Source of the DNA: Bacteriovorax sp.
GTDB lineage: Bacteria; Bdellovibrionota; Bacteriovoracia; Bacteriovoracales; Bacteriovoracaceae
DNA: 43,916 bases
Reading direction: 5' to 3'
NCBI GenBank assembly: GCA_014377485.1
Contig: JACMPM010000044.1
Span: 1 to 43,916 of the forward strand
The first letter of the stretch is position 1. Each line of letters starts with the position of its first letter. Below, in pieces: positions 23,500 to 35,300 of the stretch. The position numbers were made by a program, and so were the translations under genes. Below the pieces are notes generated by a model. The model was not told the origin of the DNA and did no database searches. It was given only the letters and a program-made list of their open reading frames with translations.

Positions 23500-25128
23500 C
23501 TAAACTTCGGTTTTCTTTTTTTCTACATAATATTGAAAATTAGACTCGAACACTCTTATTCCGCCTTTATCTACTTCAAATACGCGGTTGGATAACCCGT
23601 GCAAAAAGTGTCTATCATGGGATACGTACATAACTGTACCTTCGAATTCTTTAAGAGCATTAAGTAAAACATCTCTAGATTTTAAATCAAGATGGTTGGT
23701 AGGCTCATCTAATATCAAAAGATTGTTGTTGTTTGACATTAAAGTCGCAAGTACTACTCTGCTTTTTTCTCCACCGGATAATATTTTTATTTTCTTATCG
23801 ACGTCATCACCGCGAAATAAAAACGCGGCAAGTAGATTTCTGATATAACCATTTGAAGCCAGAGGAAGCCGCTGTGTGATTTCTTCCAACACTGTATTTT
23901 CAGGATTTAATAAATCGAGAGAAAATTGAGAGAAGTATCCTGCCTTAATACTTGGTCCTAAACTCGACTCTCCGGAAGTTGCTTCAGTTAAACCGCAAAT
24001 AACTTTTAAAAGTGTGGATTTACCTGCACCGTTGACTCCAACTACTGCAATTTTATCCAGGCGATTAACTGTTGCCGTTAATCCATCGAAGACTTTATGT
24101 ATCGTTTTATCATCTCGACTCCAGCTTTTCCCCAAGTCTTTCATGATAACAATATCGTTGCTACCGCGAGGAGGAATTGGAAAGCTAAAATCCATTACAA
24201 TATCTTCAGGCGGCATTTCCACCCGATCAATCTTATCTAATTTCTTAACTCGCGATTGCACTTGAGCAGCATGGCTGGCACGGGCAGCGAACTTTGCAAT
24301 AAATTCTTCTTCCTTAGCAAGCATATCTTGCTGGCGTTCGAATTGAGCTTGTTGCTGATCTTTTCTAATTTCTTTTTCTTTTTCGTAATAGTCGTAATCA
24401 CCGGTGTAAGTGGTAATTGTTTTGTTATTGACTTCGATAATACGATTGACGATTCCGTTCATAAAATCGCGATCATGGCTGGTCATTAAAACCGCGCCTT
24501 TAAAACTTTTGAGCCATTCTTCTAGCCAAACAATACTTTCGAGATCGAGATAGTTGGTAGGTTCATCCAGTAAGATAACATCGGGGACTTGAATCAAAAT
24601 TTTTGCCAGAGCAATTCTCATTCTCCATCCACCAGAGAACATGCTTACATCGCGGTCGTGATCGTAAGGCATAACTCCGAGGCCGGTGATGATTTCTTTA
24701 GCTCGAGTATCGAGGTCATATCCGCCAAGTTTTTCAAAATCAGTCTGATAGTCTCCTAACTTATATAGAACTTTTTCCATCTCATCGTCTGATAAAGGAA
24801 TTTCTCCATCCAACATTTTTTCAATCTTTCTTATTTCTAAGGCGAGCTCAGAAGCTTTTGCACTTCCGCTCATAACTTCTTCGATTACAGTGCGTCCTTT
24901 CATCTCACCAATATTTTGTGAAAAATAGGCAACACGGATTTTTTCGGGAACGGTGATTGAGCCTCCATCGAAGCCTTCCTCTTTCATTAGGACTCGAAAG
25001 ACGGTAGTTTTCCCTGCACCATTAGGACCAACGAGGCCTGCCTTATCACCAGGGCGCAAAATAAATGAGGAATTCTCATAAATAATTTGTCCGCCGTAAT
25101 GTTTAGAAACGTTATTAAAACTGATCAT
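23500..25128 (-). CDS. ABC-F family ribosome-associated ATPase, both ATP sites intact
   Basis: 542 residues with two ATPase domains and no membrane segment. Domain 1: Walker A GPNGAGKT (about 34), signature FSGGWRMR (about 164), Walker B VILLDEPTNYLD. Domain 2: Walker A GVNGAGKS, signature LSGGEKSR, Walker B LLILDEPTNHLD. The linker between (about 245-300) is charged and contains the usual KEEEFIAKFAARASHAAQ. ABC-F proteins act at the ribosomal E site in translation or antibiotic protection. It heads a co-directional run of seven genes. The second ABC-F in the window (29655) differs by a degenerate ATP site. Confidence 0.93.
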   Translation of the reverse strand: MISFNNVSKHYGGQIIYENSSFILRPGDKAGLVGPNGAGKTTVFRVLMKEEGFDGGSITVPEKIRVAYFSQNIGEMKGRTVIEEVMSGSAKASELALEIRKIEKMLDGEIPLSDDEMEKVLYKLGDYQTDFEKLGGYDLDTRAKEIITGLGVMPYDHDRDVSMFSGGWRMRIALAKILIQVPDVILLDEPTNYLDLESIVWLEEWLKSFKGAVLMTSHDRDFMNGIVNRIIEVNNKTITTYTGDYDYYEKEKEIRKDQQQAQFERQQDMLAKEEEFIAKFAARASHAAQVQSRVKKLDKIDRVEMPPEDIVMDFSFPIPPRGSNDIVIMKDLGKSWSRDDKTIHKVFDGLTATVNRLDKIAVVGVNGAGKSTLLKVICGLTEATSGESSLGPSIKAGYFSQFSLDLLNPENTVLEEITQRLPLASNGYIRNLLAAFLFRGDDVDKKIKILSGGEKSRVVLATLMSNNNNLLILDEPTNHLDLKSRDVLLNALKEFEGTVMYVSHDRHFLHGLSNRVFEVDKGGIRVFESNFQYYVEKKKTEV

Positions 25129-29463: not shown

Positions 29464-29654
29464 AGGTGTTACTCCCTGAGTCGTAAATAATAAAGTGTTA
29501 TATATGATTTAACCTTCTGGAAAGCTATACGTCCATCCCAGAATTTCACCCAACGCGTAAACTCCCTGTAAATCCGCTCGAAAAAGCCCTGACATTTTCT
29601 TTCATTCACGCTAAAAAGAAGGAATAAGAAAACTGCGAACTTTAAAGGATGATT

Positions 29655-31238
29655 ATGATTATTTGCCAAAATGTGGGCCTTCGATATGGAGCACGTAAAC
29701 TTTTTGAAGATGTGGACATTAAATTCACACCGGGTAACTGTTATGGACTCATCGGTGCAAACGGCGCGGGTAAATCAACTTTCATAAAAATTCTTGCCGG
29801 TGAGATTCCCTCATCAACTGGAACTGTTTTTATCACTCCAGGACAGAGACTTTCAGTTCTTAAACAGGATCACTTTTTATTCGATGATATTGAAGTGCTA
29901 AAAGTTGTGATCATGGGTAACAAAAGACTTTTAGAAATTATGGAAGAAAAAGACGCTTTATATGCCAAAGAAGATTTCTCCGATGAAGACGGTCTTCGCG
30001 CTGCTGATTTAGAAGCGACCTTCGCTGAAATGAATGGATGGGAAGCTGAATCAGAAGCTGCCACACTTCTTTCTGGTCTTGGAATAAAAGAAGAACTTCT
30101 CTCTAGACAAATGAATGAACTAAACGGCGGAGACAAAGTAAAAGTTCTTCTCGCTCAGGCCCTTTTTGGAAAACCCGATATTCTGCTGCTGGATGAACCC
30201 ACCAACCATTTAGATATTAAAGCTATTCATTGGCTGGAAAACTTCCTGGCCAATTTTCTCAATACTGTTATCGTTGTGTCCCATGATAGACATTTTTTAA
30301 ATAAAGTATGTACTCATATGGCCGATATCGACTTCGGAAAAATTCAAGTTTTTGCTGGTAATTACGATTTCTGGTATCAGTCTTCACAACTTGCAATGAC
30401 TTTAAAATCAAATCAAAATAAAAAGACTGAAGAAAAAATGAAGGACTTAAAGGACTTCATCGCAAGATTCAGTGCCAATGCTTCAAAATCTAAACAAGCA
30501 ACATCAAGACAGAAAACTCTTGATAAAATTACGCTTGAAGATATCAAGCCTTCTACTAGAAAATATCCTTTTATTCTTTTCAAGCCAAAAAAAGAAATTG
30601 GAAAAGATGTTTGTAACGTCGAAAAACTAACGAAGACTGTTGATGGAAAAGTTCTTTTCAAAAACATTTCTTTTCAGCTTAGAAAATCAGATAAAATTGT
30701 TCTGCTTGGAGACGATCTCGCTAAAGGTGTCTTGATGGATATCTTAGCTGGAGTCACAAAACCAGATTCAGGTGCGGTCAACTGGGGTGTAACTGCTCAA
30801 CGTTCATATTTCCCATCGGACAATTCTCAATATTTTGTTGAAGGAAAATACAATCTTGTCGATTGGCTAAGAGATTTTTCTGAAGACAAAGACGAATCAT
30901 TCGTCAGAGGTTTTCTAGGACGCATGCTTTTCTCAGGGGAAGAAGCTCTCAAAAAAACCAATGTCCTCTCTGGAGGAGAAAAGGTTCGTATGATGCTTTC
31001 TAAAATGATGTTAGAAGCACCAAACGTTCTTATCATGGATGGACCTACTAACCATTTAGATCTTGAAAGCATTACTTCAGTGAACGAAGGCTTAAAAAAG
31101 TACGATTCGGCCTTAATTTTCTCATGTCACGATCATGAGTTTGTCCAAACTGTTGCCAATAGAATTATTGACATTCAACCCAATGGATCGATTATTGATG
31201 TAGAAAAAACTTTCGATGAATACTTAGAGTTGAATTAA
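29655..31238 (+). CDS. YkpA/YbiT-type ABC-F ATPase with degenerate second ATP site
   Basis: 527 residues from the ATG at 29655 (AAAGG six bases upstream; the ATG at 29649 is too close). Domain 1 is intact for ATP: Walker A GANGAGKS (34-41), Walker B ILLLDEPTNHLD with Glu181, switch His in SHDRHFLN. Its signature is altered: ELNGGDK for LSGGE. Domain 2 has lost Walker A (GDDLAKGV where GxxGxGKS is expected) and its catalytic Glu (LIMDGPTNHLD, Gly463), but keeps the signature LSGGEKVR (438-445). Since each ATP site pairs Walker motifs of one domain with the signature of the other, site 1 is whole and site 2 is lost on both faces. Similar decay is, from memory, seen in relatives of this subfamily. 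Confidence 0.92.
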   Translation: MIICQNVGLRYGARKLFEDVDIKFTPGNCYGLIGANGAGKSTFIKILAGEIPSSTGTVFITPGQRLSVLKQDHFLFDDIEVLKVVIMGNKRLLEIMEEKDALYAKEDFSDEDGLRAADLEATFAEMNGWEAESEAATLLSGLGIKEELLSRQMNELNGGDKVKVLLAQALFGKPDILLLDEPTNHLDIKAIHWLENFLANFLNTVIVVSHDRHFLNKVCTHMADIDFGKIQVFAGNYDFWYQSSQLAMTLKSNQNKKTEEKMKDLKDFIARFSANASKSKQATSRQKTLDKITLEDIKPSTRKYPFILFKPKKEIGKDVCNVEKLTKTVDGKVLFKNISFQLRKSDKIVLLGDDLAKGVLMDILAGVTKPDSGAVNWGVTAQRSYFPSDNSQYFVEGKYNLVDWLRDFSEDKDESFVRGFLGRMLFSGEEALKKTNVLSGGEKVRMMLSKMMLEAPNVLIMDGPTNHLDLESITSVNEGLKKYDSALIFSCHDHEFVQTVANRIIDIQPNGSIIDVEKTFDEYLELN

Positions 31239-33427: not shown

Positions 33428-34615
33428 TTACCACAAATGTAAGGGAACTTTTTTTCCTTCGCGATCTTCAATTGAAAAATCGCCTGAGATAAGTTCTTTG
33501 TCGCCAATAACCATCGAACTAAAAGGACGAAGCATCCGGCCAAGACTAATTCTCTTAGAAAGACTACTGCCCATGCGAAGATCTACTTTGACCCGAATTT
33601 CTTTTTGCATAAATTCTTTTTCAATTTCTTGGGCCTTGATCAAAGCAATTTCAGATATTGGATAAATGAGCAGCTCGATGGGACATAAAAAACGAGGAAG
33701 TTTTCCATCAAAATACTCCAATAGCATTGCTATGAATCTTTCATGACTTCCCAACGGGGCCCGATGAATAATCCAAGGCTTGATCTTTGTTCCTCCACTA
33801 ACGACAAACTCTAAGTCAAATCTATCCGACATACTGGAGATAAAATCTAATTGGACTGATCCCATCGACTCTTCTCGAACACCAACTTCACTAAAAAATT
33901 TCATTTGCACATCAATTTTTGGTCCGTAAAAAGCGGCTTCACCTGAAGCTTCAAAAAACGGAAGTTCCAGTTCTTTTAAAGCAGATCTTAAAATTTCTTC
34001 ACAGTCTAACCACAATTTTTTATCTCCAATTAAATCCTTTGAATTTGGGTTGTGCTTAGAGAGTCTGTAGCGATATCCTTTTAGTCCTAGTTCCTGATAA
34101 CACTCTTCATGTAACCTAAGCACATTTAAAATTTCGTCCTTTGCTCCTTCGGGGTTCACATAAATATGAGCATCGTTTTGGCAAAGTCCCCTCACTCTGG
34201 AAATCCCCCTAAGTGCTCCACTGGCTTCGTTGCGATAAACTTGTCCGTACTCGGCCAATCTCAAAGGGAGTTCGCGAAAACTTCTTGGTCTGGAAGAAAA
34301 TATTTTATGATGATGAGGGCAATTCATTGGCCTTAAAAAATACTCAATATTTTCCATTTTTATTGGCGGGAACATATCATCTTTATAAAAATGCAAGTGA
34401 CCACTCTTGTCGTATAATTCTGATTTCGCCAGGTGAGGACTTGCTACTCTTTCGTAGCCTGCAATAAATTCTTTTTTCTTAATATATTTTTCTAGCTGAT
34501 CTCTAATTACGCATCCATTAGGAAGCCACATTGGAAACCCCGCTCCCACAGACTCTTCAAAAAAATATAGCTCCATCTCCACCGCTAATTTGCGGTGGTC
34601 AAATAAATAAGACAT
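33428..34615 (-). CDS. Threonyl-tRNA synthetase lacking TGS and editing domains
   Basis: 395 residues from the ATG at 34615 (GGAG five bases upstream; an in-frame ATG at 34642 has no ribosome site). The class II core is complete: RPMNCPHHHKIF with zinc ligand Cys99, motif 2 YRNEASGALRGISRVRG, His150 in QNDAHIY, and motif 3 IIHRAPLGSHERFI with His284 and Arg293. The anticodon-binding domain follows from about 305 but ends some 20 residues early at KKVPLHLW. E. coli ThrRS is about 640 residues; the roughly 240 N-terminal residues holding TGS and the N2 editing site are absent. It may be a second, stress-related or resistant copy, or the only ThrRS; the window cannot tell. Confidence 0.88.
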   Translation of the reverse strand: MSYLFDHRKLAVEMELYFFEESVGAGFPMWLPNGCVIRDQLEKYIKKKEFIAGYERVASPHLAKSELYDKSGHLHFYKDDMFPPIKMENIEYFLRPMNCPHHHKIFSSRPRSFRELPLRLAEYGQVYRNEASGALRGISRVRGLCQNDAHIYVNPEGAKDEILNVLRLHEECYQELGLKGYRYRLSKHNPNSKDLIGDKKLWLDCEEILRSALKELELPFFEASGEAAFYGPKIDVQMKFFSEVGVREESMGSVQLDFISSMSDRFDLEFVVSGGTKIKPWIIHRAPLGSHERFIAMLLEYFDGKLPRFLCPIELLIYPISEIALIKAQEIEKEFMQKEIRVKVDLRMGSSLSKRISLGRMLRPFSSMVIGDKELISGDFSIEDREGKKVPLHLW

Positions 34616-34682
34616 AAAAACTCCAAGGGCGTTAAACGCCATTTTAAAAAATGAACTAATTTAATATCAATGTGAATTTGTT

Positions 34683-34698
34683 CCCGCGATCAAGCGGG
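34683..34698 (-). promoter_or_regulatory. Leader hairpin upstream of ThrRS gene
   Basis: On the minus strand CCCGC and GCGGG pair around the six-base loop TTGATC. It is the only GC-rich patch in an AT-rich leader. No T-run follows, so it is not a plain terminator; it lies 20 bases after the candidate leader peptide. Confidence 0.4.
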
Positions 34699-34717
34699 CA
34701 ATAAAAATGAATGTACC

Positions 34718-34771
34718 CTAATGGGTGATGATGGTAGATGAGAGGAATGGAATAAGAAATATTACGTTCAT
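34718..34771 (-). other. Possible Thr-containing leader peptide
   Basis: A 17-codon minus-strand frame encodes MNVIFLIPFLSSTIITH, with two Thr codons (ACC) four apart, ending 20 bases before the hairpin at 34683-34698 and 103 bases before the synthetase start. Position and content fit translation-sensing attenuation, but it has no convincing ribosome site and only two Thr codons. Confidence 0.2.
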
Positions 34772-34955
34772 AAAAAAATTTTAACATACAAAAAATTAAA
34801 TTTCAATATACGGCATTCATAAATACTCATTTCGTTGGCGGTAATACACTAGGTTCAATAATAACTACCTCTGCTATCAAGAGCTTAGATCACCTTTTTA
34901 GTTAATTTTCATTTTGATATATACTCTCGATATAGTTCGCTAACGGAGTATCCTC

Positions 34956-35300
34956 ATGATTTTTTTAAAAAAAATTTCGCTATCATGCCTACTCTTGGCA
35001 TTTTCTTCCACTCTTTTAAACGCAGAAGAAATTGAAAAAGATCCACTAGTGGGAATAAGTGTTTCTAAAGCAGAAATTGCAAAGCAATTGGAAGATTTTA
35101 AAAAACAAGGAAAAATATCTGATGCAGAATATTTAGAAACCCAAAAATTATTAAATGCAATGAACGAATCTCAAATTTCGGACATTAATCAAAAAGCGAT
35201 CGGGATGGTGAGAAAGGATCCAGATAAAGCAGTGGCCTTGGCCAATATGAAAAAAATAGATAATCAAACTCAAAAAGATGCTGATCAACTTTTGCCTTAG
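34956..35300 (+). CDS. Small secreted helical protein, function unknown
   Basis: 114 residues. Signal peptide about 1-23 (ending LLNAEE). The mature part is charged and helical (ISVSKAEIAKQLEDFKKQGK, YLETQKLLNAMNES). No cysteines, no family recognised. ACGGAG lies about eight bases before the ATG. An 11-bp inverted repeat overlaps its stop codon. Confidence 0.65.
   Translation: MIFLKKISLSCLLLAFSSTLLNAEEIEKDPLVGISVSKAEIAKQLEDFKKQGKISDAEYLETQKLLNAMNESQISDINQKAIGMVRKDPDKAVALANMKKIDNQTQKDADQLLP

Follow-up and report, generated by a model that had tools for sequence, protein, structure and literature searches.

The locus described here raises the question of what use a bacterium can have for a threonyl-tRNA synthetase (ThrRS) that lacks an editing domain. 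The gene is located on the minus strand at 33428..34615 of the window, by which we mean the whole stretch of 43,916 nucleotides of Bacteriovorax sp. DNA that was analysed, and encodes a short ThrRS of 395 amino acids consisting of a class II catalytic core and an anticodon-binding domain. The first-pass annotation had described a ThrRS without TGS and editing domains and had proposed either a second copy, resistant to stress or to inhibitors, or a lineage tolerating or otherwise correcting mischarging with serine.

The longest open reading frame at the locus is 33428-34642 (-), but the start at position 34615 given by the first-pass annotation was preferred, because it follows the sequence TTGGAG and agrees with the conserved start of the relatives (ribosome-binding site and ATG at 34613..34626, minus strand). 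The profile TIGR00418 (thrS) matched the protein with 392.5 bits, for a cut-off of 383.65, over profile positions 172-548 of 565, and an archaeal-type ThrRS (NF003068) was ruled out, with 123.2 bits for a cut-off of 484. The Pfam search showed the class II core and the anticodon-binding domain (PF03129, 24.4 bits, cut-off 21) and nothing else; the tRNA_SAD editing domain (PF07973) was not found by this search. Alignment to E. coli ThrRS, whose numbering is used throughout, showed that R363, R375 and R520, which we take to be functional core residues, are retained, that H73, H77, D180, C182 and H186, presumably the editing residues, have no counterpart, and that the C-terminus stops about 25 residues early. 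The zinc residues C334, H385 and H511 and the threonine residues Q381, D383, Y462 and Q484, with roles as given in PMC9880928 (excerpt), are also retained. The alignment thus confirmed that the catalytic and zinc residues are all there, that the N-terminal part including the serine-editing site is missing and that the C-terminus is short, as had been claimed. The AlphaFold2 model of the protein has a mean pLDDT of 90.4, and its best Foldseek matches are the ThrRS cores of E. coli, Salmonella and S. aureus, with TM scores of about 0.86-0.90 to the E. coli and Salmonella structures and query-normalised scores of 0.86-0.89 over the first six to seven matches. A lost N-terminus upstream of the gene was ruled out, since neither an in-frame nor a frameshifted part is present there and the region is a leader.

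A search of the genome to which the window belongs (3.95 Mb, 147 contigs, 98.85% complete) showed that a full-length thrS is present on another contig (G000:C11:29065-30738; 582 amino acids, 691 bits). This housekeeping ThrRS is that of locus L001 1474-3222, and the copies of the relatives are similar in length. The short and full-length enzymes of this genome share 36% identity, and the editing residues of the full-length one are in place in the alignment to E. coli ThrRS. The proposal of a second copy was therefore borne out; its inducible or inhibitor-related part is suggested, more conditionally, by the Thr-codon leader and by residue 489, both described below. A lineage tolerating or otherwise correcting mischarging with serine is not needed as an explanation, since the full-length copy retains the editing residues. 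The description of the short form must also be narrowed: its editing domain is indeed missing, but a TGS domain was not recognisable by Pfam in the housekeeping ThrRS either, where only PF07973 was seen, so that the editing domain is the real difference between the two copies. PF07973 was found twice in the genome, in the full-length thrS and in a frame of 886 amino acids that is probably AlaRS, judging by its size and family, and a free-standing editing protein of the PF07973 family was searched for in the genome and not found. The relatives that carry the short form have a full-length copy rather than a separate editing protein. Ten genomes of the order (L012-L021: G071, G110, G069, G111, G019, G043, G078, G040, G039 and G041) contain a different full-length ThrRS, 44-48% identical to the short form, which is the sole ThrRS match in several of them, among the matches listed, and which has apparently taken the place of the usual housekeeping gene.

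Comparison of the 129 genomes of the order showed that close short relatives (60-73% identity) exist in the same genus, intact in G009, G012 and G006 and as a broken copy in G013, and that a second set of short forms, of about 377-419 amino acids and 33-38% identical to that of the window, exists in ten genomes of other genera. We refer to the type of the window as group A and to the second set as group B. Another 24 genomes of the phylum, chosen for two ThrRS matches or a leader match among the matches listed, contained 22 short group A-type genes, 21 of them with upstream DNA (the exception is G236, locus L224); these short-gene counts are lower bounds. At least 36 short genes with readable upstream DNA are thus available, in 36 genomes of the phylum, 15 of which are from the order. 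The occurrence of the short gene is patchy, with 5 of 14 genomes in the genus of the window as searched, and several copies are broken or split (at two places in G139, by an internal TGA in G164, into two pieces in G013 and perhaps in G142), which indicates that the function is dispensable. The pieces in G139 are near 2736257 and 2343623 of contig 1, about 393 kb apart, as if cut by a large rearrangement. The dN/dS values of intact pairs were 0.045, 0.049, 0.045 and 0.083 for four of six pairs, the other two being saturated at synonymous sites, and these values indicate that the short thrS is under strong purifying selection. A scan of named genomes, from which the best 80 full-length relatives were kept, showed no short form among the matches listed apart from 5'-cut records. 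Carriage as phage cargo was rejected (26 phage records matched, all below 60% identity), as was carriage on viral contigs, where there was no match.

In a tree of 68 cores, which took in 33 of the 80 named loci, group A is located beside a full-length type present in some Bacteriovoracaceae and Gammaproteobacteria, among others. Group B falls towards the housekeeping and E. coli enzymes, and the support is good for both groups. A common origin of groups A and B was rejected (AU test, p 0.00074). A tree of 38 sequences, which took in 12 group A and five of the ten group B proteins, separated group A, group B and the short enzymes of a Streptomyces type, described below, into three groups, and a single clade of group A and the Streptomyces-type enzymes was likewise rejected (AU p 0.0043).

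The region upstream of the short ThrRS of the window, 34613-34806 (-), contains a promoter-like site, a leader open reading frame of 17 codons, three hairpins (P1, P2 and P3) and the ribosome-binding site. The promoter-like site (34778..34806, minus strand), TTGAAA-17-TAAAAT with a TG before the second hexamer, is located 6 bases before the leader start codon and has 10 of 12 matches; three such sites are present in the region for 2.4 expected in shuffles, so that the site is weak when taken alone. The leader open reading frame (34718..34771, minus strand) encodes MNVIFLIPFLSSTIITH followed by the stop, with the Thr/Ile codons ACC ATC ATC ACC near its end, and its last Thr codon runs into hairpin P1 (34715..34726, minus strand), ACCC-ATTA-GGGT. 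The stem of P1 is short, with four pairs in the window, and the leader stop TAG is in its loop and 3' arm, a position common to the relatives. Hairpin P2 (34683..34698, minus strand), CCCGC..GCGGG, has a stem that is kept in most relatives with an almost wholly different stem sequence, and hairpin P3 (34628..34640, minus strand), GGCG-TTTAA-CGCC, is immediately 5' of the ribosome-binding site. An intrinsic terminator was not found in 34600-34960. A T-box or any other Rfam family was rejected for the leader regions, with no match in them at 10 loci, where only a TPP riboswitch and tRNA were found elsewhere, and none at three more loci. The TPP riboswitch is at L046 710-815 (-), with 65.4 bits, near a group B locus. 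An operon partner of the short thrS was also rejected, since no neighbour is conserved among the loci compared. Two ABC-F proteins are encoded near the short thrS, at 23500-25128 (-) and 29649-31238 (+), the first of which exceeds the NCBIfam cut-off for ribosomal-protection-like ABC-F (439 vs 380 bits).

Comparison of the upstream regions showed that the leader, with its Thr codons, precedes each of the 36 short genes with readable upstream DNA; a script recognised 35 of these leaders, and that of G210 (MLIERIKNIFVIVFRANTRTGTPSGY followed by the stop) was found by eye and translated. In all 36, a Thr codon is located at the foot of P1. Immediately before it comes ACC in 32, ACG in one and ATC in two of the 35 scripted leaders and GGC in G210; the leader of the window is among the weaker ones, because its codon at this point is ATC (Ile). 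Threonine accounts for 104 of 599 leader codons (17.4%), compared with 21 of 599 and 15 of 599 in the remaining frames, with a minimum of two and a median of three Thr codons per leader. All four synonyms occur among the Thr codons that precede the hairpin (53 ACC, 7 ACT, 5 ACG and 4 ACA).

The stability of the hairpins was compared with that of dinucleotide shuffles. P2 had a mean z of -1.99 (27 of 35 leaders beyond -1) and P1 a mean z of -1.32 (23 of 35), while P3, tested in the 20 of 35 leaders whose start codon was found by pattern, was weakly stable (mean z -0.9, 12 of 20) and the leader coding part was hardly more stable than its shuffles (mean z -0.6, 9 of 35). The pairing of P2 is kept with a changed sequence, for instance as GCTGC/GCAGC in G138 and GGCCGCC/GGCGGCC in G132, and four leaders (B_G037, B_G036, B_G125 and A_G217) are without a stable P2. 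Pairing of the 3' arm of P1 with the 5' arm of P2 was visible by eye in some leaders (B_G117, B_G118 and B_G040) but not in all.

The specificity of the leader was examined with a covariance model, R1, built from 15 leaders. In the genome of the window, R1 gave one strong match, at the window (47.1 bits, the next being 19.2 bits), and in the 129 genomes of the order strong matches were found in 15 genomes, all training members; six weak matches in the order (E 7.9e-4 to 9.2e-3), which fall within coding DNA or next to it and have no short ThrRS, were taken as chance. Over 368 genomes of the phylum, the matches listed at E<=1e-3 were 23, namely the 15 training members, seven new ones and one of the six attributed to chance, and all seven new ones among these are directly before short ThrRS genes. 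No such leader precedes the full-length thrS genes whose upstream DNA was read directly, four of them housekeeping copies and five others. The leaders of groups A and B are alike in sequence around the stop codon, and the simplest account of this agreement is that one leader came to precede two unrelated cores, although the likeness could also come from strong constraint acting on a short motif.

A protein search of plasmids showed that short thrS genes are also carried by plasmids of Streptomyces, Kitasatospora, Streptantibioticus and Embleya. Among the plasmid records matching the short ThrRS, 569 of 699 are of Klebsiella, and in most records the match extends over less than 80% of the query. 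Eleven plasmid regions were opened, of which eight contain a short and three a full-length thrS; a Thr leader of the kind MKRAA..TTTP..VPAR (MKRAAMTTTPESVPAR and similar) was found before all eight short genes and, by the same scan, before none of the three full-length ones. In both of the plasmid leaders that were folded, a long GC-rich hairpin follows. The plasmid leaders are clearly of the kind of thrL of S. lividans TK24, MKRVRPFLETTPGFVPAR, which is upstream of a thrS and is transcribed from the leader ATG (PMC8079986, excerpt), so that the principle of a Thr leader before thrS is known in Streptomyces.

These results are best accounted for by ribosome-mediated control by Thr-tRNA, because tandem Thr codons are at the foot of a hairpin, the leader open reading frame adjoins the promoter and the leader keeps exclusive company with an enzyme that makes Thr-tRNA. 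We consider that the short ThrRS is probably a backup enzyme whose synthesis is induced by a shortage of Thr-tRNA. The promoter just upstream would give an RNA starting almost at the leader ATG. When there is enough Thr-tRNA(Thr), the ribosome would pass the Thr codons, reach the stop in P1 and leave, the RNA would fold, and most transcripts would stop short of the synthetase gene, probably through Rho, given the lack of a visible intrinsic terminator. Under a shortage of Thr-tRNA(Thr), the ribosome would stall at the Thr codon or codons at the foot of P1, the formation of P1 would be disturbed and the short ThrRS would be expressed. Transcription attenuation is thus the likely form of control, with Rho or a translational step as alternatives for the switch. 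The short ThrRS would charge tRNA(Thr) with its own core, and the editing of Ser-tRNA(Thr) would be left to the full-length ThrRS, in trans. The loss of editing would be tolerable if, as we propose, the short enzyme is made only at need and the full-length enzyme still edits in trans even when it is blocked at its charging site.

A second catalyst would be of little help if threonine itself were missing, so that the most likely trigger, of which we are less sure than of control by Thr-tRNA, is inhibition of the main enzyme, for instance by a compound of the borrelidin or obafluorin kind. Changes of H309 and L489 of E. coli ThrRS increase the Ki of borrelidin 300- to 1000-fold, and position 489 is a Thr in the ThrRS of the borrelidin producer (PMC4389257, excerpt). 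In our alignment, position 489 is a Leu in 10 of 10 housekeeping copies, a Ser in 20 and a Gln in one of 21 group A proteins and a Gln in both Streptomyces-type proteins, while group B has a Leu (10 of 10) and the other full-length type a Val (10 of 10). Two residues related to obafluorin, the resistance site Gly463 (PMC11252418, excerpt) and Tyr462, are unchanged in all groups, so that obafluorin resistance is without sequence support. The rim of the active site of group B is unusual: His337 is replaced by Ala and Ala460 by Lys in 10 of 10, and Lys465 by Ser (nine) or Ala (one).

The change of position 489 in group A and the Streptomyces-type enzymes also bears on the possibility that the short ThrRS is a starvation enzyme, with a lower Km for threonine or a lower cost, induced by amino-acid starvation between prey or hosts and not by an inhibitor. 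In favour of this explanation, a shortage of Thr-tRNA of any origin would register in the leader, and the neighbourhood of the short thrS showed no inhibitor gene cluster; however, an extra synthetase is no cure for a missing substrate unless its Km is much lower, and the change of position 489 also speaks against it. We regard starvation as a possible trigger, but not as a probable one.

It is less plausible that Thr-Thr-Pro-stop is an arrest peptide sensing something other than Thr-tRNA, in the way that the arrest peptide TnaC senses tryptophan. The leader peptide ends in TTP in 25 of 35 leaders, a Pro before the stop is a slow-termination context, and TTP is also present in the unrelated leaders of Streptomyces. 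In the remaining leaders, however, Leu, His or Arg takes the place of the Pro, or the stop is beyond the hairpin, whereas the Thr codon of the hairpin is kept in every one of the 36.

A low-zinc backup edited in trans by the full-length enzyme would have a precedent in T2 of Anabaena, a second, editing-impaired ThrRS corrected in trans by T1 (PMC4787780, excerpt), yet we consider it quite unlikely here. The three zinc ligands are all retained in 21 of 21 group A proteins (as are Q381, D383, Y462 and Q484 in those 21), in 10 of 10 group B and in two of two Streptomyces-type proteins, and the leader points to Thr-tRNA and not to zinc. Slightly less probable still is that the protein is no longer a tRNA enzyme and has become, like other truncated synthetases, a ThrRS-derived ligase or regulator that uses Thr-AMP with another acceptor: N575, R583 and R609, which we take to be anticodon contacts of ThrRS, are poorly retained in group A, and the N-terminal domain that helps to hold the tRNA is gone, but the anticodon-binding domain is still recognised above its cut-off, E600 is invariant, the loci compared have no conserved neighbour gene that could supply the acceptor, and a leader sensing Thr-tRNA suits an enzyme that makes it. 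Finally, an assembly error or a decaying thrS fragment, which the broken copies of G139, G164 and G013 might recall, can be dismissed, as 395 codons are open, the length and start are common to many genomes, dN/dS is far below 1, the gene has its own leader and the trees do not derive it from the housekeeping gene of the genome.

Leader peptides with codons of the regulated amino acid are those of thrL (thr operon) and pheM (pheST) in E. coli, the latter regulating a synthetase; they differ in using intrinsic terminators, and the leader regions studied here gave no Rfam match. Leader attenuation of TrpRS1 of Streptomyces has reportedly been described by Vecchione and Sello. TrpRS1 is an auxiliary, indolmycin-resistant enzyme (review PMC9437257, excerpt), and attenuation by a trpS2/trpS leader is treated in PMC1262725 (excerpt). 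Like the short ThrRS, it is a second synthetase beside a housekeeping gene, preceded by a leader peptide with cognate codons, and its resistance is inducible, as resistance may be for the short ThrRS; it differs in concerning Trp and not Thr and in showing no loss of an editing domain. T2 of Anabaena is also a second, inducible ThrRS with poor editing, for which apo-T1, the full-length enzyme, edits in trans (induction and help in trans being our reading for the present enzyme), but T2 keeps a degenerate editing domain and is under Zur/zinc control (PMC4787780, excerpt), whereas here the domain is gone and the leader has Thr codons. ObaO, which occurs in obafluorin producers as a second ThrRS, gives resistance to an inhibitor of ThrRS and is changed at position 489; it differs in that its catalytic part is residues 241-637, so that N-terminal domains are present, in having a Ser at the Gly463 position, where Gly is kept in all the enzymes studied here, and in being encoded in a biosynthetic cluster (PMC11252418, excerpt). 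MST1 of yeast mitochondria consists, like the short ThrRS, of a core and an anticodon-binding domain without an editing domain, and is active in charging but also forms Ser-tRNA(Thr) (PMC4267643, excerpt; PDB 4yye); it is, however, the only ThrRS of its compartment, is without leader control and is 30-31% identical to the short ThrRS in the fold match. The thrL of S. lividans resembles the present leaders in being a short leader open reading frame with Thr-Thr-Pro before thrS (PMC8079986, excerpt), and differs from them in its leader sequence, which is without the ACCCC-NTAR-GGGG hairpin over the stop that characterises the Bdellovibrionota-type leader, and in preceding a ThrRS of a different lineage, as judged by the AU test above. 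The short ThrRS and its leader are therefore best filed as an auxiliary synthetase under leader control, partly like TrpRS1 and T2 of Anabaena and differing from each in a defining feature. In the literature searched, we found in print neither the Bdellovibrionota-type leader nor its link to the loss of an editing domain, nor any amino-acid attenuator for this phylum of predatory bacteria.

The inducible backup ThrRS may be part of a broader arrangement, which we put forward tentatively: a portable leader sensing Thr-tRNA would have been joined at least twice in the phylum to unrelated ThrRS cores without editing, with a similar arrangement again in the relatives of Streptomyces, and would produce an inducible two-part synthetase in which the short enzyme charges and the inhibitor-blocked full-length enzyme edits in trans. 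What appeared as a missing domain becomes a testable system, a synthetase probably made on demand and without proofreading of its own in a phylum of predatory bacteria. If the two-part reading is true, charging and editing would be naturally split in these bacteria, and genes annotated simply as 'threonine--tRNA ligase' would hide an inducible tolerance to ThrRS inhibitors. That the loss of editing is repeatedly found together with a Thr leader points to a rule, namely that proofreading is dispensable in a synthetase made only in an emergency.
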